Shown: one piece after another, positions 4,716 to 43,040 of the stretch
Layout: the number at the start of each line of letters is the position of its first letter
How positions within the stretch are numbered: position 1 is the first letter of the stretch
DNA from: Acidobacteriota bacterium
GTDB lineage: Bacteria > Acidobacteriota > Terriglobia > Acidiferrales > UBA7541
NCBI GenBank assembly: GCA_021818865.1
Contig: JAKASX010000016.1
Location: forward strand, 1 to 49,100
Reading direction: 5' to 3'
Length of the DNA: 49,100 nucleotides
Translations under genes and position numbers: made by a program
The notes under the pieces: model-generated
Told to the model about the DNA's origin: nothing
What the model saw: only the letters and a program-made list of their open reading frames with translations
The model's database searches: none

Positions 4716-4941
4716 GGCGGTTATTCTCTCATGGCAGGATGGGAACTGTCAGTCGCAGCTGGCTTGGGGCACAGGAAAAGCGTGGCGCAGGCGTCCCTGC
4801 TGCTGCCGTCATTGCGCCGGCGCGCCTTCCCGGTTGGCGCATGAAAACGAGCCGGATAGTGTAGGATAACCGTGGACAAAACGGCCGGAAATGGCGCACG
4901 CAAGCGCCAAAATCACTCGCCATCGGGCCGGGGAGATCCGA
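4716..4941. other. Divergent intergenic region
   Basis: 226 bp between the divergent deacetylase and S9 peptidase genes. It must hold both promoters. A possible plus-strand promoter is TTGGCG with a TAGTGT-like -10 after 17 bp near 4834-4862, but the match is weak. No structured RNA is recognised. Confidence 0.3.
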
Positions 4942-6993
4942 ATGAAACTGGGAAACAAGACGGGAATCGGCGCCGAGCTGGCGCTTGTGGGTCTGCTGAG
5001 CATGGGTGCGGCAACCGCAGCGGCCGCCCCGCGGCCCCCAGCCGCGCGTCCAGTGGCGGATAGTCCGGCGGTCGAGCAGGCCATCCACGACATGTTTTCC
5101 GTGCACGAATTTTCGCAAGTGGCGATTTCTCCCGGCGGCAGGCGGGTGGCGTGGGTCGAGTCGCTAAACAAGAAAAGTGGCGCGCCATCGCCGAATTCCG
5201 CTATCTACGTGGAAAACTGGGAAACGCGCGGCAAGCCGGTGCGCGTGACGGCGGCTCGCAATGGTGCGGTTGCTTCCGAAAATAGCATCGCCTGGTCGCC
5301 CGATGGCAAGCAGATCGTGTTTCTTTCCGACGCCGGCCATTCCGGACAGAAGCAGCTTTACGTCGCCACGCCCGGCGAACCCGCGCGGCAACTGACGCAT
5401 CTTACCGGCGCACTCTCCGACCCCTCCTGGTCGCCCAGCGGCCGCACGATCGCCCTGCTTTATATCGCCAACGCGCCGGGAGCGATGGGACCGCTCGCCG
5501 CCGAGCAAGAACGCACCGGCGTGATTGGCTCGAAAATTTACGAACAGCGGGTTGCGCTCGTCGATGTCTCAACCGGGCGCGTGAGCGAGATTTCCCCCGC
5601 CAATCTTTACGTTTATGAATACGGCTGGGCGCCGGATGGCAAACAGCTGGTTGGCACGGCGGCGCACGGGCGCGGCGACGACAATTGGTGGATCGCGCGG
5701 CTCTACGTTTTCAATCGTGCAACCGGAGTTGCGCGCGTCATTTATCGCCCCCCGGCTTCGCTTCAGATGGGCCATCCTACATGGTCGCCCGATGGGCGCA
5801 CGATCGCGTTCATCGGCGGAATCATGAGCGACGAAATCGCCGTCGGCGGCGACGTCTACACGGTTCCCGCGTCGGGAGGCGAAGCTCGCGACGCCTCGCC
5901 GGGAATGAAAGCCACGGCCAATTCCATCGTTTGGGCGCCTGATTCGCGCTCGCTCACCTTTGGCGAAATCGTGGACGGTGAAACCGGCATCGCTTCGCTC
6001 GATCTCGCTTCCAGCGCGATTCGCACACTGTGGCGCGGCCCCGAGCACATCAGCGCGAATTTCTTCGGCGTCGGCCTTTCGCTTTCGCGCAACGGCGCGG
6101 ATTCGGCGATCGTGCGGCAGTCGTTCAGCGAGGCGCCGGAAGTCTGGGCAGGGCCGGTGGGCCATTGGCGCCAGGTGACTTTCCGTAATCGCTCGCTGCG
6201 CCCGGCGTGGGGCGAGGCGAAAAGCCTGCATTGGACGACAGGCATCGGTACCGTGCAAGGATGGCTGGTCTATCCGCGCGATTACAATCCGTCCAAACGC
6301 TATCCGATGGTCGTTTCCGTTCATGGCGGACCGGCGTGGGCGAATCTGCCGGGTTGGCCCGGCCGCGGCAGCTACCAGATGGCACTGCCCGCTGCCGGCT
6401 ATTTTCTGCTCCTGCCGAATCCGCGCGGCAGCTACGGCGAAGGCGAAGCGTTTACGCGCGCGAACGTGAAGGATTTCGGCTACGGCGATTTTCGCGACAT
6501 TATGGCGGGCGTCGACGCCGCGCTAAAGGCCCTGCCGGTCGATCCGAGCGAACTCGGCATCACCGGCTGGAGCTACGGCGGCTACATGACGATGTGGGCG
6601 GTGACGCAGACAGACCGCTTCCACGCGGCGATGGCCGGCGCGGGCCTTTCCGATTGGCTCAGCTATTACGGCGAAAATCAGATCGACCGGTGGATGATTC
6701 CCTATTTCGGCGCGTCCGTTTACGACGATCCCGGCGTTTACGCGAAAAGCGCGCCCATCGACTTCGTCAAGAACGTGAAAACGCCGACGCTGATGCAAGT
6801 GGGCCACGACGACGGCGAATGTCCCGCTCCGCAATCCTATGAATTCTGGCACGCGCTGCGGACGCTCGGCGTGCCGACCGAACTCGTGGTGTACGCGGAC
6901 GAAGGCCACGGATTCGTCAAGCCGGCCGACAACCGCGAAGTGGCGCTTCGCACGCTCGCCTGGTTCAACAAGTACCTGCTCTCGGCTCGGTGA
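4942..6993 (+). CDS. Exported S9 family prolyl oligopeptidase / dipeptidyl peptidase-like
   Basis: 683-residue serine peptidase of the prolyl oligopeptidase family. The N-terminal part is a propeller of WD40-like PD40 repeats (AWSPDGK, SPSGRTIA, GWAPDGK, TWSPDGR, VWAPDSR). The C-terminal alpha/beta hydrolase carries the triad: Ser544 in GWSYGGY, Asp near 623-624 in GHDDGECP, and His656 in DEGHGF. I place the start at the ATG at 4942 because GGGGAG lies just upstream and the first 30 residues then form a clean signal peptide ending in an alanine run; a longer frame begins at 4891. The protein is probably periplasmic or secreted and releases dipeptides or cleaves after proline or small residues. 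It is monocistronic as far as can be seen. Confidence 0.9.
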   Translation: MKLGNKTGIGAELALVGLLSMGAATAAAAPRPPAARPVADSPAVEQAIHDMFSVHEFSQVAISPGGRRVAWVESLNKKSGAPSPNSAIYVENWETRGKPVRVTAARNGAVASENSIAWSPDGKQIVFLSDAGHSGQKQLYVATPGEPARQLTHLTGALSDPSWSPSGRTIALLYIANAPGAMGPLAAEQERTGVIGSKIYEQRVALVDVSTGRVSEISPANLYVYEYGWAPDGKQLVGTAAHGRGDDNWWIARLYVFNRATGVARVIYRPPASLQMGHPTWSPDGRTIAFIGGIMSDEIAVGGDVYTVPASGGEARDASPGMKATANSIVWAPDSRSLTFGEIVDGETGIASLDLASSAIRTLWRGPEHISANFFGVGLSLSRNGADSAIVRQSFSEAPEVWAGPVGHWRQVTFRNRSLRPAWGEAKSLHWTTGIGTVQGWLVYPRDYNPSKRYPMVVSVHGGPAWANLPGWPGRGSYQMALPAAGYFLLLPNPRGSYGEGEAFTRANVKDFGYGDFRDIMAGVDAALKALPVDPSELGITGWSYGGYMTMWAVTQTDRFHAAMAGAGLSDWLSYYGENQIDRWMIPYFGASVYDDPGVYAKSAPIDFVKNVKTPTLMQVGHDDGECPAPQSYEFWHALRTLGVPTELVVYADEGHGFVKPADNREVALRTLAWFNKYLLSAR

Positions 6994-7103: not shown

Positions 7104-7132
7104 CGCGCCAAGACTCCATCAGGAGGACGCAC

Positions 7133-7519
7133 ATGGTAAGAGTCGTGTCCGCGCTTGCACTTCTCGGCCTGTTCGTTTTATCCGCTCCCAAAACTGCCTA
7201 CGCACAGGACAACTGCGGCCGTCTGTTCCCCAACCAAATCGGGATATGCACCAACCCCGAGTGCGGTCAATGCACGGTCATGGTGAACTCCTGCGCGCTC
7301 GGCTTCTCGCGCGTTCGCACCTACGTCTTTCCCGGCGTCCAGTGCCCGTGCAACATCAACGAATACGTCGGCACCGCCGAAAAGGCGGGTACCTGCAGCC
7401 AGTTGGCGAGGCCGAGCGTGAGGGTGGCGATTGATCCGGTCGCGGCCCCCCCGCGCTCGTTCTTCATCTACCTGCCCAACTGCGCGGCTGACTTCAGCGT
7501 CGAGGAGGTGCTCGCGTGA
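7133..7519 (+). CDS. Small exported cysteine-rich protein (module copy A, first gene)
   Basis: 128 residues, with a textbook signal peptide ending in AYA before QDNCG. The mature part has about nine cysteines clustered in its first 75 residues (including CTNPECGQC and CPCN) plus one near the C-terminus, as expected of a disulfide-bonded exported protein. The start at 7133 follows AGGAGG at a good distance. Its TGA overlaps the GTG of the next gene (GTGA), so the two are translationally coupled. A protein of the same size and plan, with mature start QCCG, precedes the related propeller gene at 42348-42731. No known family is recognised. Confidence 0.75.
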   Translation: MVRVVSALALLGLFVLSAPKTAYAQDNCGRLFPNQIGICTNPECGQCTVMVNSCALGFSRVRTYVFPGVQCPCNINEYVGTAEKAGTCSQLARPSVRVAIDPVAAPPRSFFIYLPNCAADFSVEEVLA

Positions 7520-8661
7520 GATTCGCCAGGGGCCTTCGGCGCTCTGCGACGCTTGCCGCAGCGGGCGGCCTCTTGCTCGCGTTATGCGCCAACAGATCCG
7601 CAAGGGGCCAAACCAAGCTGGCGCCCGCACCGCCGCCTTCCGTCCCCGAATATAGGCTGAGCGTGGGGAGGGGGACTCCGCTTAATTCGGCAGCAATACC
7701 CAACTTCGGCGCCGTCAAGTGCGACAGCCGAGGCAATGTTTACCTCCGGCTGCTTCTGCAGAACTTCGTCAGCTTTTATACTCCAGTGACCGAATTCTCC
7801 CGTGATGGCTCCCGACGGGCGGCGTTTTCGCTCTCCGCCGCGCCGAGATGGGTGCCGGGCGATATCATGGACTACGCCATCGGACCCAACGGCCGCGTCT
7901 ACCTGCTCGTCGATCACCTCAACAAGCAACGAAAGACGGAAGACGGAATTCTGGTCTTCGGCCAGGATGGCGACCTTCGCTCGACCATCCGCCTCCAGCT
8001 TGGCACGCCGGACGTTGACAGGATCGGCGTGTTCTCGACGGGAGACTTCCTCGTGCTCGCCACGAAACGCGCAAAGCAGGCCCAGCCGCTCATTCCCGGA
8101 ACGCCTGTCCATGGCAAAATCACGGCGGAGCACAGGGCGCCGGTCAATCCCGTCGCGTACCTTGTCGGCCACGATGGCCGGCTGCTCAAAACGATCTTGC
8201 CGCCAGAAGGGCTGGTCCTCACGCGCGACCATCACGCCGGCCCGCCGCTCGAAATCAGTGCAACGTCCGGCGATACCGCGCAACTCGTGATGAGCGAGTA
8301 CGGTCATACGGCGTATTTGATGTTCGAGAAAGGGGTGCCTGTCGTCTATGCCATCTCGTCGTCGGGCGACGTGCTCCGGAGCTTCCCGATTGAACTTCCG
8401 TCCGGGGGGTTCACGCCGATTATGATGACGTGGGCGAATGGCCTCGGCCTACTGCTCGAGAGTGCTCATGTTGTTAACCATGGATTCCCGGCTTCGCAGG
8501 TGCGTTTCTCTGTGATAAATCCGCAAACGGGCGAGCGGCTAGACGACTATCGAGTCGGTCCGCGTCTCGGCACGGACCTGGCGTGTTTCTCGCGCCAGCA
8601 CATCACCTTCCTCACCTCCCCGAAGGGCAAGCTGACGCTGACTGACGCTACGATTCACTGA
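7516..8661 (+). CDS. Exported beta-propeller-like protein (module copy A, second gene)
   Basis: 381 residues with an N-terminal signal-like segment followed by a low-complexity alanine/proline linker. The remainder consists of repeated short beta motifs typical of 6-bladed propellers: KCDSRGNVYLR, FSRDGS, IGPNGRVYLL, FGQDGDLRSTI, FSTGDFLVLA, GHDGRLLKTI, INPQTGERLDDY. No catalytic residues can be assigned. Translation starts at a GTG overlapping the stop of the Cys-rich gene. It matches in plan and motifs the 410-residue protein at 41100-42332, although the two are strongly diverged. A role in binding or scaffolding outside the cell together with the Cys-rich partner is inference. Confidence 0.7.
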   Translation: MRFARGLRRSATLAAAGGLLLALCANRSARGQTKLAPAPPPSVPEYRLSVGRGTPLNSAAIPNFGAVKCDSRGNVYLRLLLQNFVSFYTPVTEFSRDGSRRAAFSLSAAPRWVPGDIMDYAIGPNGRVYLLVDHLNKQRKTEDGILVFGQDGDLRSTIRLQLGTPDVDRIGVFSTGDFLVLATKRAKQAQPLIPGTPVHGKITAEHRAPVNPVAYLVGHDGRLLKTILPPEGLVLTRDHHAGPPLEISATSGDTAQLVMSEYGHTAYLMFEKGVPVVYAISSSGDVLRSFPIELPSGGFTPIMMTWANGLGLLLESAHVVNHGFPASQVRFSVINPQTGERLDDYRVGPRLGTDLACFSRQHITFLTSPKGKLTLTDATIH

Positions 8662-8824: not shown

Positions 8825-10765
8825 ATGCCTTTCCGTGTGGCCGCGCGATTCTGCACATTTGGCCCTTTGCTGGCCGCGATCGCGCTGCTACCCCTAGCTA
8901 TCTGTGCCGCGCCTGCATCGGCGCCCGCGCCGACTGTCGCGATTTCTCCCAACCGCTTGATCCAGCTTCTCTCGCAGACGATCGCGCTCGATCGCCAGGC
9001 CGCACTGGAAGAGCAGGCCGCCACGACTCCTCAGGAACAGATGCTCCTGTACGACAATCGCCGCATCGCCGATCAAGCCCTCGGGCTCGCGTTCGATTTC
9101 GCCCGGGCCCAACTCGCCGTCATGGCTGCCCAGCCGGCGCAAGCTGCCGCATCGACCACCGGTGCCGTCATGCCGCAATACGCCGCGTTGCAGCGGATGC
9201 TGGCGAAGCTCGACAAGGATCTGAAGGACACCCAGGCGGAGTCCAATTCCGACCAGCAACGACTGGCCCGCGCGACCGGCGCCCGGCGCGTGCTTTTGCA
9301 ATCGCAGATTTCCGAATTGCAGGGCGAAATCGCCCTCGCGAGGGCGCGCAGAGACGCCGTGCGCAGCATGCTGGAATACGCCAGCGGCTCGGCCGCGAAC
9401 GAAATGAGCGTGAGTGGCCTCAAGGCTCAGATTGACGCATTGGCCGCCTCGGTTCCCGCCGAAGCCGCGGGATCGGCAAGTTCCAGAGGGACCAATCGAG
9501 CCGCCTCTCCCTTCGCTCCCGCCCAGCTCAAACCCGCTCCCTCGGGCATGTGGGGTCTGGCTTCCGATCTGTTCGGCCTTTCCTCAAGAATTCACGCTGT
9601 CAATTCCGCGGTCGCACAGACCGACGCGCTGTTGAGCATTTCACAGGATCTGCGCGCGCCCTACATCTCCCACTTGCGCGCCATGTCGAAGCAAGGCGAC
9701 GAGCTCGCGGCGCAGGCCGATACCGCCAAGCCGGCCCAATTGGCGCAGGAAAAACAGCAACTCGACGCCCTCGCCGCGCAATTCAAGCAGATCGTCGCGG
9801 CCATGACGCCGCTCAGCAGGCAATACGTCCTGTTGAACCTGTACCGGAAGAATCTGGCTGCGTGGCGCGACTCGATTAACGCCCGTTACGCCTCCGATTC
9901 GCGCAGCCTCGGCATTCGCTTGGGACTTCTCGCTCTGCTTTTCGCCGTCCTGTTCGGATTGTCGGAAGTCTGGCGGCGGGCCGTCTATCGCTACGTATCC
10001 GATACCCGCCGCCGGCACCAGTTCCTGCTCATCCGCCGGTTCACTCTCTGGCTCGTCGTCGCTCTGGTGATTGCGGGAACGCTTGCGGGCAAGCTCAGTT
10101 CGTTCCTCACCTTCGCCGGCTTGCTCACCGCCGGACTCGCGCTCGCCCTGCAGAGCGTCATCCTATCCGCCGTCGGTTATTTCTTCCTGATCGGGAAATA
10201 CGGCATTCGCGTGGGCGATCGGGTGGAAGTCAGCGGGGCGGTGGGCGAGGTGATCGATATTGGCCTGGTCCGTTTCCATTTGATGGAACTCGGCGCGGGG
10301 TCGACGCCCACCGGCCGCGTGGTTGCGTTCTCGAATTCCGTCGTTTTTCAGCCGGCCGCCGGTTTGTTCAAGCAGATTCCCGGCGCGAGTTTCTCGTGGC
10401 ACCAACTCGCGCTCACGCTGCCGCGCGACGCGGATTTCGCCGGTATTCGCAAAAGCCTGCTTGGGGCCGTCGAAAACGCCTTGCTCGAATTCCGCCCGGA
10501 CATCGAGCGCGTCTTTCGCGAGATGGAAAAGCGCGGAATCCTGTTTTCCGAGCGCGGCCTCCAGCCCAAGCTTGAGCTCCGCCTCACTCCGGACGGAATC
10601 GAAGCGATCGTCCGCTATCCCGTCGATCTCCATCACGCCACGGAAATCGATTCGCGCGTCTCACGCGAGCTGCAAGCCGTGCTCGAGCGTGATTTCAAAA
10701 ACCAATCCGCCGCGACCCCGGATATCCGATTGAAAACAGACGCTTCCGGCACGCCCGCCGGTTAG
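8825..10765 (+). CDS. MscS-family mechanosensitive channel with long periplasmic N-terminus
   Basis: 646 residues. A signal peptide (residues 1-30) is followed by about 330 residues rich in Ala, Gln and charged heptads, which look like an alpha-helical or coiled-coil periplasmic domain. Transmembrane helices lie near 360-385 and 400-420, and the pore helix and MscS beta domain at about 425-520 (ALALQSVILSAVGYFFL, then IRVGDRVEVSGAVGEV, a standard MscS signature). The C-terminal 120 residues form the mixed alpha/beta MscS cytoplasmic domain. It releases solutes on hypo-osmotic shock. The long N-terminus recalls large MscK/YbdG-like or YnaI-like channels. It is convergent with the SPFH gene. 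Confidence 0.85.
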   Translation: MPFRVAARFCTFGPLLAAIALLPLAICAAPASAPAPTVAISPNRLIQLLSQTIALDRQAALEEQAATTPQEQMLLYDNRRIADQALGLAFDFARAQLAVMAAQPAQAAASTTGAVMPQYAALQRMLAKLDKDLKDTQAESNSDQQRLARATGARRVLLQSQISELQGEIALARARRDAVRSMLEYASGSAANEMSVSGLKAQIDALAASVPAEAAGSASSRGTNRAASPFAPAQLKPAPSGMWGLASDLFGLSSRIHAVNSAVAQTDALLSISQDLRAPYISHLRAMSKQGDELAAQADTAKPAQLAQEKQQLDALAAQFKQIVAAMTPLSRQYVLLNLYRKNLAAWRDSINARYASDSRSLGIRLGLLALLFAVLFGLSEVWRRAVYRYVSDTRRRHQFLLIRRFTLWLVVALVIAGTLAGKLSSFLTFAGLLTAGLALALQSVILSAVGYFFLIGKYGIRVGDRVEVSGAVGEVIDIGLVRFHLMELGAGSTPTGRVVAFSNSVVFQPAAGLFKQIPGASFSWHQLALTLPRDADFAGIRKSLLGAVENALLEFRPDIERVFREMEKRGILFSERGLQPKLELRLTPDGIEAIVRYPVDLHHATEIDSRVSRELQAVLERDFKNQSAATPDIRLKTDASGTPAG

Positions 10766-23000: not shown

Positions 23001-23126
23001 GGACAGCTCCCACTCTGCGTGGGCCGAAAAAAGACGCCAGACGTGGCCGCTTTTGACGGCAAATTCCGCCTATACCAGCGGGGGAGAGCACGCTCTCAGG
23101 ATGTTCTCCTCAAGAAGGGGGAAAAC
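23001..23126 (+). promoter_or_regulatory. Shared structured leader, copy 1
   Basis: 126 bp that match the leader before 27001 almost base for base, although the downstream proteins are unrelated. Visible parts are a hairpin CCCAC/GTGGG near 23010, a conserved GACGTGGCCGCTTTT block, a CGGCAAATTCCG hairpin, and a segment where GGAGA can pair with TCTCC, followed by the SD AAGGGGG. It also begins at a sigma-gene start on the other strand, so it should hold a divergent promoter. Confidence 0.55.
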
Positions 23127-23651
23127 ATGCGTATCATCGCGAAAGCAGGTCTCTGCATGGTCGTGCTGCTGCTTACCGCCAGCGCGGCAATCGCGCAGAG
23201 CGGATCGAGTCAGGTCGTGTTCAGCGATACGGGCAGTACGATGGCTCTCTCGGGAAACAGCAAACAAACGTCCACACCGTTCGGCTTCTGGATCTGGTGC
23301 GACGCCCAGGCAGCGCCCGGCAGCAATGGCACCTACACGGGCGCCTGCAACGGAAGTATGTATTTTTACAAGCTGCAAACTCAGGCAACGTCCATCGTTG
23401 GGTTTGTGACAGAAAACTCCACAGACCCCGTGACTTACACGATGAACGTTTTCCAGGGGACGTTTGCAGAGTTTATGCACGGCAAGCTCAACCCGCCGTA
23501 CATGTGCACTGTAACCAATACCACCCCGGTTGTGAATGGCCCTGGAAATACGGTGCAGGTGAGTTGCATGTTCGCCAATTCTCTTGGCGGAGGAACGGGC
23601 TCTTCGACGGATACCGGCACGGTAGTGAACATCACCGGCCCGTCCAACTAG
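23127..23651 (+). CDS. Small exported protein of unknown family
   Basis: 174 residues. The signal peptide ends in AIA before QSGSS. The mature protein is rich in Thr, Ser, Asn and Gly, has four cysteines, and is predicted from its alternating pattern to be all-beta (VGFVTENSTDPVTYTMNVFQGTF, NTVQVSCMFAN). The start at 23127 is set by AAGGGGGAAAAC. It is not related by eye to the exported proteins at 27001 or 31995 but uses the same leader, which suggests shared control by the sigma/kinase system. Confidence 0.7.
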   Translation: MRIIAKAGLCMVVLLLTASAAIAQSGSSQVVFSDTGSTMALSGNSKQTSTPFGFWIWCDAQAAPGSNGTYTGACNGSMYFYKLQTQATSIVGFVTENSTDPVTYTMNVFQGTFAEFMHGKLNPPYMCTVTNTTPVVNGPGNTVQVSCMFANSLGGGTGSSTDTGTVVNITGPSN

Positions 23652-23657
23652 CACTGG

Positions 23658-23746
23658 GCCGGCGTCTGAGGCTCGGGAGGCGCTTCGAGAAGCGAGCGCT
23701 TGCGTCCCTCAACCGCGAGAACCGGGGTCGGGGCAAGGACGCCGGC
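23658..23746. repeat. Structured inverted repeat downstream of the exported gene
   Basis: GCCGGCGTC (23658-23666) and GACGCCGGC (23738-23746) are perfect inverted 9-mers enclosing a perfect palindrome CGCTTC-GA-GAAGCG (23681-23694). The position, just after a stop and before a convergent gene, suits a transcription end or a short mobile repeat. The rest of 23747-23840 shows nothing recognised. Confidence 0.4.
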
Positions 23747-23840
23747 TTAAGGCTCCCGGAACGGACGCGGAGCCGCGTCAGTTTGGCGAACCGTAGGGGT
23801 GAATGCGCCTGCAACAATGTTGTCCCGGTAGAAGCAATGC

Positions 23841-23905
23841 GCCGTGTAATTCGCAGGGCGAGAAGACCCGTGGGATGCGGGCGCGCGGAAAGGCGGGACG
23901 CAGCG
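23841..23905. repeat. Kinase 3'-flank repeat, copy 1
   Basis: About 65 bp next to the stop of the kinase at 23920 match 27734-27797 next to the stop of the second kinase (GCCGTGTAATTCGCAG, GTGGGATG, GCGCGGAAAGGC). It shows that the duplicated unit includes the 3' flank and not only the gene. Confidence 0.65.
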
Positions 23906-23919
23906 TAAGAACTGGCCGG

Positions 23920-26784
<2,865 letters not shown>

Positions 26785-26804
26785 GCTTAGCTGGTTGGCT
26801 AATC

Positions 26805-26870
26805 CTACGCCTGCCGGCGTAGCTCCCGCAATAGCGAGGCCCCGGGGGTTTCCCCAGAAAGTACGCCCAT
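26805..26870 (-). pseudogene. Internally deleted ECF sigma gene (21-codon in-frame remnant)
   Basis: From ATG 26870 a complete mini-frame reads MGVLSGETPGA then SLLRELRRQA and ends in TAG. Its ends match the intact sigma gene (MGAPSTE at the start, WLLRELRREA at the end); about 168 codons between them are absent and the frame is kept. It sits exactly where the sigma gene sits relative to kinase 2, 20 bp before the kinase start. It cannot encode a sigma factor. Confidence 0.7.
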
Positions 26871-27000
26871 GAACAGCCCCACTCCTCGCGGGCCGGAAAA
26901 AGATACCAGACGTGGCCGCTTTTGGCGGCAAATTCCGCCTACACCAGCGGGGGAGAGCACGCGCTCAGGATGTTCTCCTCGAAGAAAAAAGGAGGCAGCC
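26871..27000 (+). promoter_or_regulatory. Shared structured leader, copy 2
   Basis: About 130 bp nearly identical to 23001-23126. Features are the CCCAC-TCCTC-GCGGG hairpin (one mismatch), the GACGTGGCCGCTTTT block, the perfect hairpin GGCGG-CAAATT-CCGCC, and GGGGGAGAGCACGCGCTC with later TCTCC, ending in SD AAAAGGAGG. It lies between the divergent sigma remnant and the exported gene at 27001. Confidence 0.55.
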
Positions 27001-27531
27001 ATGAAACGCCTGGTAACCGTGATACTGATGTTCCTGTTTAGTGTCGCAGCGGGCTACGCGCAAGACAGTTCCGTGAAGATGCAGTCTTCCGGGCCGGAGA
27101 TGGTAACGGCATACAACGTACAGGTGAACACAACCACCTGCGAAGAAAAGTTGGCAGGGAACGGGAGCCTGGGACAGTTCACCTACCGCGAGCTGCGGGT
27201 GGACTCGAACAATTTCACGGTTACCGACGCTTGCCCCAACGGACATCTTCAAGTTACGGGCGGTGAGGGCATATTCCGCTTCAGTGACGGAAGCCTGATG
27301 TCGGTCAACATCACAGGAGGATCCATCTGCATAGATGCCAACCAGTTTGGCCACTTGACCGAGACGTATCAGGTGTCAAGCGGCACAGGGCGTTTCCAGA
27401 AGGCGACCGGCGAGCTTAGCCATACGGCGACGCTCAACGTGGTGCTCTCCGACGCCTCGGGCAATCCGCTGCTCTTGACGCATACGGGAACATTCGACGG
27501 AACCATTATCGGCGTGGCCGGGAGCAAATGA
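27001..27531 (+). CDS. Exported beta-rich protein, family shared with 31995
   Basis: 176 residues; the signal peptide ends in GYA before QDSS, and the SD is AAAAGGAGG. It is a paralogue of the protein at 31995-32549, with the same ordered blocks: LGQFTYREL, a GIFRFSDGSLMSVNITGG segment, LTETYQ, GTGRFQ and LNVVLSDASGNP, then G-x-F-x-GTI near the end. The alternating pattern suggests a small beta barrel, possibly like allene-oxide-cyclase-type barrels (weak guess). No enzyme residues can be assigned. Confidence 0.7.
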   Translation: MKRLVTVILMFLFSVAAGYAQDSSVKMQSSGPEMVTAYNVQVNTTTCEEKLAGNGSLGQFTYRELRVDSNNFTVTDACPNGHLQVTGGEGIFRFSDGSLMSVNITGGSICIDANQFGHLTETYQVSSGTGRFQKATGELSHTATLNVVLSDASGNPLLLTHTGTFDGTIIGVAGSK

Positions 27532-27536
27532 AGAAA

Positions 27537-27659
27537 GTAGAAGCTGTTGCATAACCCAACTTCTTGCAGGCGCGGCTTCCGCCATGACGTAAAGGCGGCC
27601 ACTAAAGAGCGCTTTGGCCTTCGCGGCCGATAGCAAACAGGTTATGCAACGGCTTCTAC
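27537..27659. mobile_element. 123-bp element with 20-bp terminal inverted repeats (MITE-like)
   Basis: The left end (27537-27556) and the inverted right end (27640-27659) agree in 19 of 20 bases, both reading GTAGAAGC-YG-TTGCATAACC outward to inward. The 83-bp interior codes for nothing and contains short self-complementary parts. No clear target duplication is visible. It looks like a non-autonomous insertion just after the exported gene; it could also fold into a long terminator-like hairpin. Confidence 0.6.
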
Positions 27660-27733
27660 CGGCAGCAATAGGCCGACCCTTTGATCGTGGCCCATCATGA
27701 GTTTCCGGATGCGACAGCCGAGGCTCAAGGCGA

Positions 27734-27797
27734 GCCGTGTAATTCGCAGCGTGCGAAGACCGGTGGGATGTGGGTGCGCGGAAAGGCAGGACAGGGC
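27734..27797. repeat. Kinase 3'-flank repeat, copy 2
   Basis: Matches 23841-23905. It lies just after the stop of kinase 2 in the same relative position, marking the edge of the duplicated kinase unit. Confidence 0.65.
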
Positions 27798-27812
27798 GTC
27801 GGAGTTGGCTGG

Positions 27813-30644
27813 CTATTGCAATTTGGCATATTCGGATTTGGCTTGCTGCAAGATGGGGATGTCAGGGTCGGCGTTTCTCCAGAGCGTGAGGAAATCTTTA
27901 TAGGCGGCGCGGGCCTTGGCGGTTTCGCCTTCCATGGCGTACGCGCGACCAAGCTGTAGGTGCGCCAGTGCGCCAATGGGATCGCCGAGGACGATGCCGC
28001 GATGATCCAGGATTTTTTGGAATTGGGCCGCAGCCTCCCGGCCCCGCCCGGCGTCGAGGTACGCCTGGCCGCGCACATAGGCGGGATAGAGGCCTCCGAA
28101 CTTGGCGAAGAACGCCGTGCCCGGCATCGCGAGGTCGTAGGGAAGGGCCATTTGCAGCCGCTCGATCGCGTCCCCCGGGGCGTTCTTGGCGAGCGCGAAA
28201 AGCGCGCGCAGCGTGGGAAGATATTCGAATTGGACCGGAGTGTCTTCCGGGAATCGTTCCGCGAGATCCCTGGCGAGCGTTTGCGCGCCGGAACCGTCGC
28301 CGGCGAGCGCCAACGCAAATGCCGCGGCGTACTCCACATCGCGGCCCCTGCCCAGCTCGAGCGCCTCCCGGGCGCGCTCTTTCGCCCGATCGCGGTTTCC
28401 GCAGTGGGCTTCGCAGACCGCTTCCGCAGCCTGGTAAATGGCGACTTTTTTCTCGCGATCGCTGGTCTGTTGGGCGCGCTCGATTGTATGGCGCCAGTGG
28501 ATTCTGGCATCGCGCATCTTTCCGGAACGCGCCAGGACGAGGGCCTGGTTGTGCGACATCCAGTCCTCCGTCTCCAGATTTCCGCGGGCCCGCTCGAATT
28601 CGCGTTTCATCCCCGCTTCGTCGCCCTCGAGAAACGCGAGATAGTAACGGTTGACCAGGAAGGCGGGAAGTTCCAGTTTGCGGTCGGCGGCCCGATCGAG
28701 CGCGGCCTCGGCTTCCGCGAACCGGCCGAGGCCGAGGTTGTGGTCGAAAAGACTGACGTAGGCTAATGTGAGGTCTGGATTGAGTTGGAGGCACTGCTCG
28801 GACGCCCGGATTCCCCTCTCATACTGGCCGGTGCCCCGCGTGCCCCATCCGGACAGCAAACTCCAGGGCCTCCAATCGCCGGGATGGGCTTGCGCCCAGG
28901 ATTCGAGAGTCTCCAACTCTTTCTGCAAGTTTCCGGTTACTTGGCGGTCGTAGAGAAAGAGGATGAAGAGCCGCTCCGGGTCGCTGACGCGGTCCCGCAG
29001 CTCATAAGCTTTCTGGACGTATTCGGCCCCCAAATGGGTTTGTCCCATGTTCCAGTAATAGAAGCCCATGTCGGCTAAGGCCAAAGCGAATTGAGGATCA
29101 ATGGCGATGGCCCGCTGGAGGTGGGGGATCGCAGCAGAGAAACCGCGGGTGAACACGGCGTTACGGGCGGCGCTGTAAGCCTTCAGCGCTTCCAGCGAGG
29201 GTGTGGTCGCCTCTTCGAGCGGCGTCGAGTGCTCGCTGATGGCGGACAGTGACTCGCCGAGCCTCTCCCTGATCCGAGCGGCAAGCCCCGTGAGCGCATT
29301 CAAGACGTCTTCTTTCGTTGCCACTTGCGCTTGTTCGTAGGCGAGGATGTCTCCCGTGAGGCAGTTTCTGGCGCGTATGCATAGGACATACTGGCCTCCG
29401 AGGCTTGCGATCGAACCTTCCAGGGCGAGCGTGCCGCCGCTGCGCTCGCAAATCTCTTGCACCACCTCGGGTGTGAGCCGCGTCTCGGGCGGCCGGTTCA
29501 TCAAACGAAGCACGTGATGGACCTGTTGATCCGAGACGAGAGTCAGCAACCGCGACTGCTCCAGTTGCACGAACAAGCCCTGACGCAGGATTCCATCAAA
29601 CACCGAATCGCCGGTTTTGTTCTCGAATTCGCCTGCCACAATCTTGTGCTTCCGGGCGAGTTTCGGCGCGCGGCGAGGGGAGGATTGTTCGACGGCGCGC
29701 GGCCCGCGGCTCCCTTTAGGACCTGCCGCCAGTTCCCGCGCCAGGTCGGCGACGGATTGCCAGCGGCGCGCGGGATCCTCTTCGAGGCAGCGATTCACGA
29801 TCGTTTTCAGCTTGCGCGAGGGAACTCGCATGCGCTGGAAGGCAACTCGCTCGCCGGTCACCATCTCGTAGAGCACGCAACCGAACGAATAGATATCCGA
29901 ACGGGCATCAGCCGGCTTGCCTTCCCTTTGCTCCGGCGCCATATAGGCTGGCGTGCCCATCACCACGTGGCTGGCGGTGAGAGTCTCGTCCTGCACCGAT
30001 TTCGCCAGACCGAAATCGAGAACCTTGATGCCGGTCTTCGCGATCATGATGTTGCCGGGCTTCAGATCGCGGTGGATGATGCCCTTGCCGTGCGCCTCGG
30101 CCAGCGCGGCCAGAATCTGCGAGCAATAGAGGAGCGTCGTTTTGACGGGAAGAGGACCGCTTTTCAGGCGCGCCGCGATCGTTTCGCCTTCGACCAGCTC
30201 CATCACCAAATAATTCGGGCCGACGTCGTAAAGCGTGCAGATATTGGGGTGATTCAGCGAAGCAATCGCGCGCGCTTCACGCTCGAACCGGGCGCTGAAC
30301 TGCTCGCGAGCGGTTTTGATCGCGACGGCGCGGCCCAGTCGTGTATCTACCGCCCGGTAGACCTCGCCCATGCCGCCCTGGCCTAGTTTGCTTTCGATGC
30401 GGTAGGGCCCCAGGCTCGCGCCTGAAGCCGTTTCAGTGAGAGTCGGGTCACCGGGCAGTTGCGTCGCGTTCTGGATTGCCGGGCGATCGAGAAATTCGCC
30501 GCTGGAGCGCTCGGCGAGAAGAGATTCGACTTCGCTGCGCAGTTCGGGATCCAGTTCAGCCAACAGGGCCGCGAGTTCCTCGGCAGTCTTCCGACGAGCT
30601 GCATGGTACAGCTCTTCAATCCGCTGGAAACGCTCAGGGATCAT
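27813..30644 (-). CDS. Serine/threonine protein kinase with TPR repeats, no membrane helix (kinase 2)
   Basis: 943 residues from ATG 30644. The kinase domain has the same numbering as kinase 1 (K110, D193 in HRDLKPGN, D210 in DFGLAK, APEQREG) and is almost identical up to about residue 260. After residue 310 it diverges. Where kinase 1 has its transmembrane helix, this protein has a charged Gly/Pro/Arg-rich linker ([13 protein letters not shown]), so it should be cytoplasmic. TPR-type helical repeats fill the C-terminal 500 residues and are only moderately similar to kinase 1. The sigma gene ends 20 bp upstream, so sigma factor and kinase form one operon. Regulation of the sigma factor by the kinase is inference. 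Confidence 0.9.
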
Positions 30645-37831: not shown

Positions 37832-40800
37832 TTAATTCGGCGACGGAGGGACGTAGAGCACGGGAATGTTGTGCTGCTGCATTTGGCGATTGATAGACGC
37901 GAGGTCGGTGCGCTCAAGGGCGCGCCAGCGCTGGATTTGATCTTCGAGGCGCGCGAGGTACAGCTTCGCCATTTCCTGGAATTGGGCGGTGGGCGCGCCG
38001 TCGCCGAAATCCACTTCGTCCTCGAGGTAGGCGATTTTGCTGTTGAGTTCGGTGGGGAAATTCAGGAGTTCCTCGCTGGTTTTCGCGTGCGACTGGTAGA
38101 GAGCGTTTTCGATGACGCTGGCTTTGCGATCGAGAGCGGCCATTGAGGCGAGAAGAGGTTTGGCGCTGGGATCGCCGGCGAGGCGATGGCTCATCTGCTT
38201 GAGTTCGGCGCGGAGATCGAGAATCTGGTCCGCGGTCTGGTGGTCGCGAGCGAGCGCGTCCATCAGAGTGGTCGCGAGATCGTATTCGGCGACCAGATCG
38301 GCTTGCGGAACTTTAGAGCGGAGATCGTTCGCGACGGTGAGCGGCTGCGTGTAGGTTTTGCCATCAACGGTGAGGCGGACGGTGTACTTGCCGGGCAGCG
38401 CCATGATGCCGCGCGGATAGCGTTCGTCGTAGGCCGAACCGCCCTGAATATCCGCCGGAACGGGATAGCGCAAATTCCAGTTCACTCGATGCATGCCAGG
38501 CGCGACGTCGAGTTTATTGGGGCCGGCAGTGGAATAAAGAACGCCGATTTTTCCTTGCGCGTCCACGACGGAAAGCGCCACGGGGCCGGAGGGTTTCGAT
38601 TTCAGGTAGTAATCGAGGAAGGCTCCGGTGGGATTGCCGAGACGCGAACGAATGGCGGTTTCCGGACGGAAGAGATAAACATCCGCAGCGGACGCTTGCG
38701 CTAATTGGCGGAGCGGAGTGATGTCGTCGAGCACCCAGATGGCGCGGCCATGCGTGGCGACGACGAGATCATTGCCGTGAATGGCGAAATCGCGCATGGA
38801 CGTCGTCGGCAGATTGAGCTGAAGCGATTGCCAATGGTCGCCGGCGTCGAAGGAAACGTAGACGCCGGTTTCCGTGCCGGCAAAGAGAAGATTCGGATCT
38901 TTCGGGTCCTGGCGAATCGCGTGGACGTAAGCGGGAGTGGAAATGCCCTGATTGATCCGCGTCCACGTTTTGCCGTAATCGCGCGTGCGAAAAATCCAGG
39001 GCTGGTAATCGTTGTTTTCGTGATTGTCCACGGCGACCCAGGCGGTTGCGGCGTCGGTATCGGACGCGGCGATCATCGAGACGCGGCCCCAGGCGGGCAT
39101 TGCCGGAGGGGTGACGTTGTGCCACGATTTGCCGCCATCGCGCGTGAGCTGAATGAGGCCGTCGTCGGTGCCAGCCCAGATTTGGCCCGCGGCGACGGGC
39201 GAGGGAGCGATGGCCCAAACGGTGTCGTAATACTCGATGCTGGAATCGTCCTGGTTGATCGGGCCGCCGGAGCTTTGCTGCTTGCTCTTGTCGTTGCGCG
39301 TGAGATCGGGGCTGATGGCGTGCCAGCTCTTGCCGAGATTGTCGGTTTCGAGAAGGTATTGCGAGCCGATGTAGAGCACGTTTGGATTTTGCGGCGAAAG
39401 AGCGATCGGCGCGGTCCAGTTGAAGCGGTAACGCAATTCGGCCGCCGCGTGGCCGCCATTGTTGTTGGACCACGGCGCGATGTCGTGGAGCTGGCCGGTG
39501 GTTTTGTCGTAGATCGTGATCGCGCCGCCGTAGCCGCCGGCAATCAACAGATTGGGATTCGCGGGATCGACGAGGACGTAGCCGCATTCGCTATCGTCGC
39601 CGCCCATCCAATACATTTTTCTTTCCACGCCGCCGCGATCGTCGCTCACGACGCCGAGCGCGCCTTCATCCTGCTGCGAGCCGAAGATGTAATAGGGAAA
39701 TTCGTCGTCGGTGACGATGTGATAGAACTGGCCAATCGGAAGATTATCGCGATTGCCCCACGTTTTACCGCCGTCGTCGCTGATGGCGATGCCCTGATCG
39801 TGGCCGTTGATCATGTGGCGCGGGTGAAGCGGATTCACCCAAAACGCGTGATTATCGGCGCCGAACGGGTAGCCGTCGAAACCGGGAATCGGGAGGGCCT
39901 TGAACGTGCGGCCGCCATCCACGGAACGAAGAAAGCTGTTGTCGGCGACGTAGACGACGTTGGGATTGTGCGGATCGGCGAAAACGTTGCTGAAATACCA
40001 GGCGCGCGTGCGCAAAATCTGCTGGCCGTTCACGCGTCGCCAGGTTGCGCCGGCGTCGTCGGAGCGGAACAGCCCGCCGTGCTTGGCTTCGATGAGCGCG
40101 TAGACGCGCTCGCCCTGGCTGCCGCCGGCAACGGCGACGGCGATGCGGCCGAGAACGCCCTCGGGCAAACCGTGGCCGGTCAGATGATGCCATGTCGAGC
40201 CGCCGTCGGTGGATTTGTAGAGACCGGAGCCGGGACCGCCATCGCTGAAATGCCACGGCTTGCGGTAAACCTGCCACAGCGCGGCGTAAAGAATGCGCGG
40301 ATTCGTGGGATCCATCGAAAGATCCACGGCGCCGGTCTGCTCATTCAGATAGAGGACTTTTTGCCAGGTTTTGCCGCCATCGGTGGAACGAAAAACGCCG
40401 CGCTCGGCGTTGGAACCGTAGATATCGCCTTCGGCGGCGACGTAGACGACTTCCGCGTTGCGTGGATCGACCACGATCTTGGCGATTTGCTTCGTATCCT
40501 TCAGGCCGACGTTGGTCCACGTTTTGCCGCCGTCGGTGGATTTGTAAACGCCGTCGCCAAACGAAATATCGCCCCGCGGTGCTTCTTCGCCCGTGCCGAC
40601 GTAGATGACCTGAGGATCGGAAGGCGCGATGGCGATGGCTCCGATGGAAGCCACTGGCTCGTGATTGAAAAGAGGCGTCCAGGTGAGCCCGGCGTTGGCC
40701 GTCTTCCAGACGCCGCCATCCACCGCGCCGATGTAATAAGTGTCGGGCTCGGTGGGAACGCCGGCAACCGCTTCCACGCGCCCGCCAGTGCCGGGGCCGA

Positions 40801-40945
40801 CCAAGCGCCATTTCATTCCAGAGAATAATTGCGGATTGTATTGCTGGCTATGCGCCGGAACAGCGGCAAGAAATGTCGTGGCGAAAGCTACGGCCAGCAC
40901 GGCCCTGAATCCGATGCGGCGAAATGCGACGGGGTGCTTGCGCAA
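37832..40945 (-). CDS. Exported BNR/sortilin-like (VPS10-type) repeat protein
   Basis: 1037 residues. I start it at TTG 40945 because TTGGAGGATTACC gives an excellent SD and the next 30 residues form a signal peptide ending in AHS before QQYNP. The protein then has at least six BNR/Asp-box motifs (STDGGKTW, SDDAGATW, SDDGGKTW, TRDGGKSWH, TRDYGKTW, SFDAGDHW) spaced like blades of one or two large propellers. After about residue 730 a C-terminal domain without repeats follows, ending in helices. Such proteins are common in Acidobacteria and often called glycosyl hydrolases, but no sialidase active site is visible. It is probably a surface or periplasmic binding protein. Its 5' end is repeated at 42728-42981. 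Confidence 0.85.
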   Translation of the reverse strand: MRKHPVAFRRIGFRAVLAVAFATTFLAAVPAHSQQYNPQLFSGMKWRLVGPGTGGRVEAVAGVPTEPDTYYIGAVDGGVWKTANAGLTWTPLFNHEPVASIGAIAIAPSDPQVIYVGTGEEAPRGDISFGDGVYKSTDGGKTWTNVGLKDTKQIAKIVVDPRNAEVVYVAAEGDIYGSNAERGVFRSTDGGKTWQKVLYLNEQTGAVDLSMDPTNPRILYAALWQVYRKPWHFSDGGPGSGLYKSTDGGSTWHHLTGHGLPEGVLGRIAVAVAGGSQGERVYALIEAKHGGLFRSDDAGATWRRVNGQQILRTRAWYFSNVFADPHNPNVVYVADNSFLRSVDGGRTFKALPIPGFDGYPFGADNHAFWVNPLHPRHMINGHDQGIAISDDGGKTWGNRDNLPIGQFYHIVTDDEFPYYIFGSQQDEGALGVVSDDRGGVERKMYWMGGDDSECGYVLVDPANPNLLIAGGYGGAITIYDKTTGQLHDIAPWSNNNGGHAAAELRYRFNWTAPIALSPQNPNVLYIGSQYLLETDNLGKSWHAISPDLTRNDKSKQQSSGGPINQDDSSIEYYDTVWAIAPSPVAAGQIWAGTDDGLIQLTRDGGKSWHNVTPPAMPAWGRVSMIAASDTDAATAWVAVDNHENNDYQPWIFRTRDYGKTWTRINQGISTPAYVHAIRQDPKDPNLLFAGTETGVYVSFDAGDHWQSLQLNLPTTSMRDFAIHGNDLVVATHGRAIWVLDDITPLRQLAQASAADVYLFRPETAIRSRLGNPTGAFLDYYLKSKPSGPVALSVVDAQGKIGVLYSTAGPNKLDVAPGMHRVNWNLRYPVPADIQGGSAYDERYPRGIMALPGKYTVRLTVDGKTYTQPLTVANDLRSKVPQADLVAEYDLATTLMDALARDHQTADQILDLRAELKQMSHRLAGDPSAKPLLASMAALDRKASVIENALYQSHAKTSEELLNFPTELNSKIAYLEDEVDFGDGAPTAQFQEMAKLYLARLEDQIQRWRALERTDLASINRQMQQHNIPVLYVPPSPN

Positions 40946-40948
40946 GGT

Positions 40949-40983
40949 AATCCTCCAATAATGACGCTGGAGAGGATACAACG
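40949..40983. repeat. BNR gene upstream direct repeat, copy 1
   Basis: 35 bp identical to 42947-42981, covering the SD and the upstream leader of the BNR gene. Less exact similarity extends about 90 bp into the coding side. Confidence 0.85.
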
Positions 40984-41099
40984 GCGGGAGGATCCTGCAA
41001 AAAATTTGCAGAGGCTCGCGCAATTCAGCGGCTGGTTCACGACGGGCGAAGGAACGCCTGAAGGCCTTCTCGCCATCGGCTCACCGCAATTCGTCAGGG

Positions 41100-42332
41100 C
41101 TAGCGGGGAGCTAAATCGAAGACGGCGAGACGGTTGCCGGACGTGCTGCCGAGGTATAGGAAGCCACTGTCTCCGTCGCTGCACGCGATGGTGCCGAGGA
41201 ACGCGTTGCGCACCTTGGGCAGCGTGTAGAGGGCGTCGAACTGCCCGGATATACTATTGAAAACGCCTATAAACTCAGACGGGCCCTTTGACGGCCCCGA
41301 GGCCGCGCCGGGGTTGCTAGGCGGAGGCCGTAGGAAGTCAAGGAAGATTTCTCCCGGACGGGCGACTCCGAAACCAAAGGGTATCAGCCCAGGGGCCGGT
41401 GGCGAGATTTCGAAGTGTTGGATCACTTGGCCGGCTGAGTCGACGGCGTAGAGGCGGATGGGGCTGCTTGCCCTCAATATCCAGACATTTCCGTCTGGCC
41501 CGCTGAAAACGCCGCCCGTGCTGATGGCGGCCTCGAAACCTTGCGGAACCCTGGACGCCTGCGCCCTTGCCCTCCCCGCGGCCCGGGGCTTCCCCGCAAC
41601 GCGTTCGTTAAAATTGTTCGTGACGTCGTGCGGCAGGGTCACTTCGCGGACGAAACGCCCCGTCGAGTCGTAAATCGCCGTGAGGGGTCCCCAGGATCCG
41701 AGGCTAGGCCGTTCCTTCGCGGTGGTAGCTTCCCCCACGACCAGGAAGCCGCCGTCGGGGAAGGGAACTAGCTGGTCTGCGTACCAGTGCGCAACTCCGG
41801 CAGGCGCGGGGACGGGTGTGATTGAGCCACTCGTACCGTCGTGTTTGAATCGCTCGACGTAATACTTGACAGCCGACAGAGGGTTTCCCTTGGATGTGAT
41901 TCGGCGCGCGAACATGAGCGCATACAACTTACCACCCGGCGAAACACCGTATGAAATCACGGCCGCGTGCGGGTATTTGGATTCAGGCAGCTGCGGGGTT
42001 ATATACGCTACAATCCGCTTCTCGTTGGGGATAACTTCGGAGATGGAGGGAAACGGCGCAAGGTGCATCGGATCTCCCACGAGGACCGTGAACTGGACGA
42101 AGGCATCGCCACGAGCGTCACACTGCACCCCGCCTCGGAAGCCGTTAGGAGCCGGGAAGGCAAAGACCCTGGTACGTTCTAATTGTAAGGTTTCAGTAGG
42201 GGGCAGACCGGCAGAAACACCAGAGCTCGCCCCGACCGCTTGAGGAGTTCCACGCATGGACCGAGCGCAGAGAAGCGCGGCAACCACGAGTGCCAGGATT
42301 GCCACCAGGGCGCGCAGCTGTCCTTTGCCCAT
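41100..42332 (-). CDS. Exported beta-propeller-like protein (module copy B, second gene)
   Basis: 410 residues. The N-terminal hydrophobic segment (LRALVAILALVVAALLCA) is a signal peptide or anchor. The remainder shows propeller-like motifs in the same order as the 7516 protein: VQCDARGDAFVQF, VSPGGKLYAL, FPDGGFLVVGE, YDSTGRFVREVTLP, FSGPDGNVWIL, VDSAGQVIQHFEI, NSISGQFDALY. No catalytic residues are evident. It begins 15 bp after the stop of the Cys-rich gene with a G-rich stretch before the ATG. It is the second occurrence of the pair. Confidence 0.7.
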   Translation of the reverse strand: MGKGQLRALVAILALVVAALLCARSMRGTPQAVGASSGVSAGLPPTETLQLERTRVFAFPAPNGFRGGVQCDARGDAFVQFTVLVGDPMHLAPFPSISEVIPNEKRIVAYITPQLPESKYPHAAVISYGVSPGGKLYALMFARRITSKGNPLSAVKYYVERFKHDGTSGSITPVPAPAGVAHWYADQLVPFPDGGFLVVGEATTAKERPSLGSWGPLTAIYDSTGRFVREVTLPHDVTNNFNERVAGKPRAAGRARAQASRVPQGFEAAISTGGVFSGPDGNVWILRASSPIRLYAVDSAGQVIQHFEISPPAPGLIPFGFGVARPGEIFLDFLRPPPSNPGAASGPSKGPSEFIGVFNSISGQFDALYTLPKVRNAFLGTIACSDGDSGFLYLGSTSGNRLAVFDLAPR

Positions 42333-42347
42333 ACGCCCCCCCTACCC

Positions 42348-42731
42348 TCAGCCCAGGGCCATCGCCATCCGGACGGCCACGTAGCGCCCCGTGCAGTCCC
42401 TCACATATGCATTGACGTACATTGGCTCGCCACCGCCCGTGCCGCCGGCGCCCTGCGCGACTGGGGGAACTGTGCCGACCACGACGCCATCGTAGCACTC
42501 ACCGGCAGGTGCGTACGTCGAAATCCTGTTCGGGCACAAGCCACAGTTCACCGTCACATACACCATAAACTGACTGCCGGACCCCCCGTAGCACTGGTAC
42601 AGAACCTGATTCCCGCAACCACAGTCTATATGGTAGGGGAAGCTCAGCGTTCCACAGCATTGGGCGCGTGCCGGCCGAGCGGCGAGGCAAATGAAAGCGA
42701 GGCTAGAAGCCACCACCAAGAGAGTTTTCAC
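42348..42731 (-). CDS. Small exported cysteine-rich protein (module copy B, first gene)
   Basis: 127 residues from GTG 42731 behind GGGGAGGTGG. The signal peptide ends in ARA before QCCG. About nine cysteines are clustered in the first 55 mature residues (QCCG, DCGCG, YQC, NCGLC, GEC), with one more near the C-terminus in VRDC. Length, position and cysteine plan parallel the 7133 protein (also mature start Q then CG, and a final YxxxC), but pairwise identity is low. It is probably a disulfide-rich surface or periplasmic protein that works with the propeller protein. Confidence 0.7.
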   Translation of the reverse strand: MKTLLVVASSLAFICLAARPARAQCCGTLSFPYHIDCGCGNQVLYQCYGGSGSQFMVYVTVNCGLCPNRISTYAPAGECYDGVVVGTVPPVAQGAGGTGGGEPMYVNAYVRDCTGRYVAVRMAMALG

Positions 42732-42792: not shown

Positions 42793-42943
42793 GCAGGTAT
42801 TGGTGCATTTTGCTGGGCGCGTTTTGGGTGGTTGGCCGGTTTCCGGGGGGACGCGCGGGGGCGGCCGGAAAGGCTTCCGCGAAAGCTATGGCGAGCGCGG
42901 CAGTAATGGCAAAGCGACGAGACGCGACGGGGTTCACGCGCAA
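42793..42943 (-). pseudogene. Truncated copy of the BNR gene start
   Basis: TTG 42943, behind TTGGAGGATTCTC, opens LRVNPVASRRFAITAALAIAFAEAFPAAPA, matching LRKHPVAFRRIGFRAVLAVAFATTFLAAVPA at the start of the BNR protein. Similarity ends after the signal peptide, and the frame runs on to 42728 through unrelated sequence, including the promoter of the Cys-rich gene. It is a 5' fragment left by duplication and deletion. Confidence 0.65.
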
Positions 42944-42946
42944 GAG

Positions 42947-42981
42947 AATCCTCCAATAATGACGCTGGAGAGGATACAACG
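42947..42981. repeat. BNR gene upstream direct repeat, copy 2
   Basis: Identical over 35 bp to 40949-40983 in the same orientation. The two copies bracket the Cys-rich/propeller module B. Confidence 0.85.
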
Positions 42982-43040
42982 CCCGGAGGGTTGGGCGAAA
43001 AATTTAGGTGAAAGTCCGTCGCGGCGGCGAGCCGGCCTGA

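Follow-up and report, generated by a model that had tools for sequence, protein, structure and literature searches.

Overall, our analysis identified a two-gene module in an Acidobacteriota genome, in which a gene for a small, cysteine-rich (Cys-rich) protein directly precedes a gene for a propeller protein, both predicted to be exported. The window (the whole stretch of DNA analyzed here, 49,100 nucleotides) carries the module twice, at 7.1 kb and at 42.7 to 41.1 kb; both pairs had been noticed in a sequence-only reading, and we confirmed their presence together with the GTGA overlap of the first and the 15-bp gap of the second. We tentatively propose that the module is a non-enzymatic exported binding or scaffold pair, an explanation to which we give slightly less than an even chance. 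Its reading as a pair is supported, among other findings, by the overlap or short gap, the shared strand and the constant gene order.

In the first pair, on the plus strand, an AGGAGG ribosome-binding site (positions 7,121 to 7,126) precedes a Cys-rich gene (7,133 to 7,519) that starts with the ATG at 7,133 and encodes a member of the A1/A4 families with 128 residues, a mature form of approximately 104 residues, nine cysteines and no tryptophan. Its TGA stop codon (7,517 to 7,519) lies over the GTG start codon at 7,516 of the propeller gene (7,516 to 8,661), which encodes a 381-residue member of the A2/A3 family. In the second pair, on the minus strand, the Cys-rich gene (42,348 to 42,731) has a GTG start and encodes 127 residues (approximately 104 when mature, again with nine cysteines and no tryptophan), and the 15-bp gap separates it from the gene of a 410-residue propeller (41,100 to 42,332) that is six-bladed in the predicted model. 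Read by eye, both small proteins begin with a putative signal peptide ending in A-x-A, followed by Q. The signal peptide and mature N-terminal Gln of the original description were thereby retained, and its "about ten" cysteines became nine in each protein. The two propellers are related (BLASTP E=2e-4); the two Cys-rich proteins do not match significantly in a pairwise comparison (E=0.19) and are linked via the family alignment and profile. With these links, the view that the partners have diverged yet keep the same plan and order held.

The fold of the propeller was taken from a model of the second pair as one read-through chain, in frame, with the stop codons read as Ser. The propeller part was predicted with good confidence (pTM 0.73), and the DSSP strands fell into six groups, predicted to be six blades, the last of which is completed by the N-terminal strand. 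NHL domains and a DUF4221 protein were the best matches in the fold comparison, with the NHL domain of Brat (1q7f) aligned at a Z score of 16.9 and an rmsd of 4.2 over 264 residues. As modeled, the propeller is six-bladed and of the NHL type at the fold level only. It shares the predicted fold and NHL-like DxxGNxY repeats with NHL propellers, but it differs from them in being exported, in having two near-invariant cysteines in the first and last blades and in having a long variable insertion in the latter half; the exported propellers gave no Pfam NHL match. As computed from the alignment, these cysteines are Cys69 (7,720 to 7,722, plus strand; blade 1, within CDxxGNxY) and Cys357 (8,584 to 8,586, plus strand; last blade) in the first propeller, and Cys71 (42,120 to 42,122, minus strand) and Cys384 (41,181 to 41,183, minus strand) in the second. 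Both are kept in 38 of 40 propellers, and because propellers that stand alone keep them too, they probably bond to each other rather than to the partner.

The Cys-rich proteins belong to a single family, which settles in favor of kinship the question whether the two copies in the window are related. They share a cysteine framework and, at the C terminus, the motif YVRxCxGxYxL; in the alignment of the genus copies, the cysteine core is invariant. In the second protein, the motif lies in a hairpin that contains YVRDCTGRY (42,360 to 42,422, minus strand; residues 104-124, with a pLDDT of ~74-80 in the fused model). The corresponding hairpin of the first protein, FFIYLPNCAADFSVEEV (7,457 to 7,513, plus strand; strands 109-115 and 121-127 in a low-confidence model), carries the variant IYLPNCAADF, and its G048 relative has HYIPNCKGEY. 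Modeled alone, the Cys-rich protein was poor (pLDDT 56), and in the fused model most of its domain stayed at a pLDDT of 25-40, the C-terminal hairpin block (74-80) excepted. Structure prediction of the pair, which the earlier reading had suggested, gave a good propeller from the read-through fusion and a Cys-rich domain too poorly defined for an interface. With mature ends set by eye, the cysteine count is odd in 19 of the 22 motif-bearing members (naive binomial p=4e-4) and in 23 of all 27 members (p=2e-4); as the sequences are related, these p values are not true probabilities. The three even-count members (L048, L012 and L083) each lack one core cysteine. From the odd counts, we infer that one cysteine per Cys-rich molecule may be free.

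With the window propellers as queries, we found a third propeller in the same genome, and the four remaining genomes of the genus each yielded at least one. The genus holds eight pairs, spread over all five genomes, with the third pair of the source genome among them, so the recurrence seen in the window extends beyond it. Each of the eight close propellers, counting the two in the window, has a Cys-rich exported open reading frame (ORF) directly upstream; at L003, a contig end cuts this ORF before its signal peptide. A search of the genus with the Cys-rich profile returned exactly eight copies, all beside propellers. Across the order, the propeller occurs only in this genus, save for a single genome from a different genus, which has a broken copy. 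Across the class, it occurs in 29 of 399 genomes, and these carriers represent 20 genera; carriers outside the source family belong chiefly to families f6 and f11, with a few in f7. A hand count of the close group (E below ~1e-60) placed a Cys-rich gene, in some cases frameshifted, directly upstream of 21 of 23 copies; one exception has a short Cys-rich ORF and the other has none. The diverged group contains both real pairs (L050, L053, L058, L067, L073, L074, L075 and L078) and stand-alone propellers (L013, L014, L081, L051, L052, L055 and L057). Because several diverged propellers stand alone, the propeller is, judging from these sequences, able to work without this Cys-rich partner. Two of them, L014 (G050:C12) and L081 (G048:C93), form a stand-alone subfamily situated after a glycosyltransferase-like gene of the MGDG/MurG type (ORFs read by eye).

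Of 42 propeller-family ORFs, a strict detector found 20 to be directly preceded by a Cys-rich ORF with a signal peptide, compared with 1 of 96 other long ORFs, a background from which four propellers had been taken out by hand. In the reverse test, the Cys-rich profile found 25 loci in the 399 class genomes. Of these, 24 adjoin a propeller, and the remaining one lies where a contig ends. Most of the 25 were already in the profile, and five of the six that were not are paired. The propeller search had not reported the neighbor of one blind match, in G320, and the exported ORF downstream of it has both propeller cysteines and matches the propeller profile (E=7e-11 in a one-sequence search). Among the loci read, the order from Cys-rich gene to propeller gene is never reversed. 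The pairing is conserved elsewhere, a point that the sequence-only reading had proposed as a check, with order and orientation kept across several families of one class. A phylum sample of 396 genomes yielded nothing outside the class (four candidates scored per genome). A profile scan of named genomes with A8 returned five loci, all from Acidobacteria MAGs, and the same kind of scan with P0002 returned nothing. One long open frame, at L049, was checked as a fusion of the two partners and is not one. A frameshift or internal stop occurs in one partner of the pair at L045, L063, L064, L069, L024 and G422:C173. Because several pairs are broken in this way, the copies seem to undergo decay in addition to duplication, unless the lesions are assembly errors.

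The distances among the Cys-rich proteins correlate with those among their propellers when 18 pairs are compared (r=0.60, permutation p=5e-5), and they do so as well when the comparison is restricted to the genus (r=0.80, exact p=0.0013) or to f6 (r=0.59, p=0.005). Tight linkage alone could yield matching partner trees without contact between the proteins. Of the proposal that the partners co-evolve, the agreement of the trees stood, but only as co-inheritance of tightly linked genes. Any single Pfam family appears in at most 2 of the 82 neighboring proteins scanned, and none of the genes flanking the window pairs was found beside related pairs, the one exception being a BNR-type gene near L135 that matched distantly. 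Because the neighboring genes are not conserved, the unit is the two genes. The first pair is flanked on one side by an S9 prolyl oligopeptidase-type gene (4,891 to 6,993) and on the other by a mechanosensitive-channel-like gene (8,825 to 10,765), an arrangement that is not common to related genomes. A mobile cassette was considered and is unsupported: the flanks are unshared, but the neighboring channel gene has lost synteny in the same genomes too. The second pair is bracketed by a 145-nt direct repeat, 77% identical (40,863 to 41,007 and 42,861 to 43,005), which takes in the beginning of a BNR/Vps10-type gene (37,832 to 41,023) and, upstream of the Cys-rich gene, a relic of this beginning; by its sequence, this pair sits as if inside an old duplication. 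Elsewhere in the window, at 23,009 to 30,644, two long ORFs on the minus strand (1003 and 943 aa) share 300-nt stretches that are 79-81% identical and ~3.9 kb apart and look like a tandem duplication.

Pfam, NCBIfam and PADLOC-DB gave no convincing match for either partner, and the term "undescribed" is upheld to the extent that no database family searched covers either protein. Profile searches of PDB sequences found no credible relative; a reverse profile match to 3s9j was weak (E=0.035). That structure, the exported DUF4221 propeller BVU_1028 of Bacteroides, resembles ours as a bacterial propeller (Z 16.1 over 297 residues). In Pfam-A scans that admitted E values up to 1, neither the window propellers nor the 19 members of A3 matched the DUF4221 profile itself, and we know of no Cys-rich partner of the DUF4221 propeller. 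The small exported NVEALA proteins (PF14055) of Bacteroides reportedly lie beside six-bladed propellers, a plan that is possibly alike; no NVEALA match was found in the whole source genome or in the Cys-rich alignments, with a positive Bacteroides control. Among the open-access papers searched, we found none on NVEALA or on a Cys-rich/propeller pair of Acidobacteria.

In methylamine dehydrogenase (MADH; MauA/MauB), the periplasmic small subunit is Cys-rich and ~130 residues long, and its partner is a propeller of ~380 residues; two tryptophans of the small subunit form TTQ, and the heavy chain is seven-bladed. In quinohemoprotein amine dehydrogenase, the small subunit has a Cys-Trp quinone crosslink. 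The gross plan of MADH is alike, and the module could be read as a quinone-cofactor amine dehydrogenase with a catalytic Cys-rich small subunit on a propeller large subunit. We consider this extremely improbable. Because both window copies are devoid of tryptophan, no tryptophylquinone, TTQ included, can form, and MADH is ruled out for these copies; the tryptophan that the crosslink of quinohemoprotein amine dehydrogenase requires is likewise absent. Moreover, nine cysteines are an odd number and too few for the six disulfides of the MADH small subunit (PMC7876137), six blades are predicted instead of seven, the gene order is different, no accessory genes were seen nearby, and Pfam gave no hit. 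It is also improbable, if less extremely so, that the module is another extracellular enzyme unit, in which the Cys-rich protein stabilizes a catalytic propeller of the lactonase, lyase or paraoxonase type. The predicted propeller matches paraoxonase and peptidylglycine lyase (Z ~14), but these matches reflect the general propeller fold. In 59 aligned propeller rows, the only residues conserved at 80% or more are structural Gly, Asp, Tyr, Phe, Leu, Ser and Pro and the two Cys; no His, Glu, Lys or Arg is conserved in these diverged sequences. Without conservation of catalytic-type residues, an enzyme reading from the fold match is unsupported. XusB, an exported xenosiderophore-binding propeller, works by binding and not by catalysis (PMC13142918). 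Our propeller matches it at a Z score of 13.6, but XusB has seven blades, is a lipoprotein and has a TonB-dependent transporter as its partner (PMC13142918).

The two proteins might instead be co-transcribed but independent, sharing regulation without forming a complex. The stand-alone propellers, the linkage that explains the matching trees and the models, in which the poorly defined Cys-rich domain yields no interface, speak for such independence. However, independent proteins would be expected to lose one partner, and the Cys-rich gene was not found without an adjacent propeller in the 399 class genomes, save for the one contig-end copy, nor did any locus read show the opposite order. We regard independence as possible but doubtful. 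Alternatively, the Cys-rich protein could be a secreted antibacterial or signaling effector and the exported propeller its cognate immunity or holding partner. The small-first gene order, a secreted Cys-rich protein and diverged, co-inherited paralogues with several copies per genome and broken copies are consistent with this idea, which we nevertheless judge unlikely: there is no PADLOC match, no dedicated export or processing gene recurs nearby, and stand-alone propellers exist. The W7/L012 orthologues stand at 41-42%, compared with 48-50% for the membrane channel gene in the same genomes; because the pair is only slightly more diverged than that gene, there is no sign of an arms race, and rapid evolution of this kind is unsupported.

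We therefore return to a non-enzymatic exported binding or scaffold pair and provide a putative mechanism for it. Both proteins would be made from one transcript, cross the inner membrane by ordinary signal peptides, as their predicted export signals suggest, and most likely act jointly outside the cytoplasm. The two near-invariant cysteines of the propeller, which occupy matching positions in its first and last blades, would probably close the ring with a disulfide. The Cys-rich protein would probably dock through its conserved C-terminal hairpin, YVRxCxGxY, which would leave its variable, cysteine-braced loops to meet a ligand. More speculatively, and with only a slim chance of being right, the Cys-rich subunit might keep one cysteine unpaired and, presented by the disulfide-closed propeller, use it to bind covalently to a ligand, a cofactor or a second copy; the pair would then be a class-wide exported two-protein machine of Acidobacteriota.

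If true, the unpaired-cysteine reading would introduce a novel type of covalent-capture or redox complex outside the cytoplasm. The two propeller cysteines, the YVRxCxGxY motif and the odd cysteine count provide marks for annotation, and the pair is compact and expressible and could be used for testing the idea of a binding complex. The module adds two co-inherited exported families, without a curated name in the libraries searched and with several copies per genome, to a major soil phylum in which most secreted proteins are uncharacterized.
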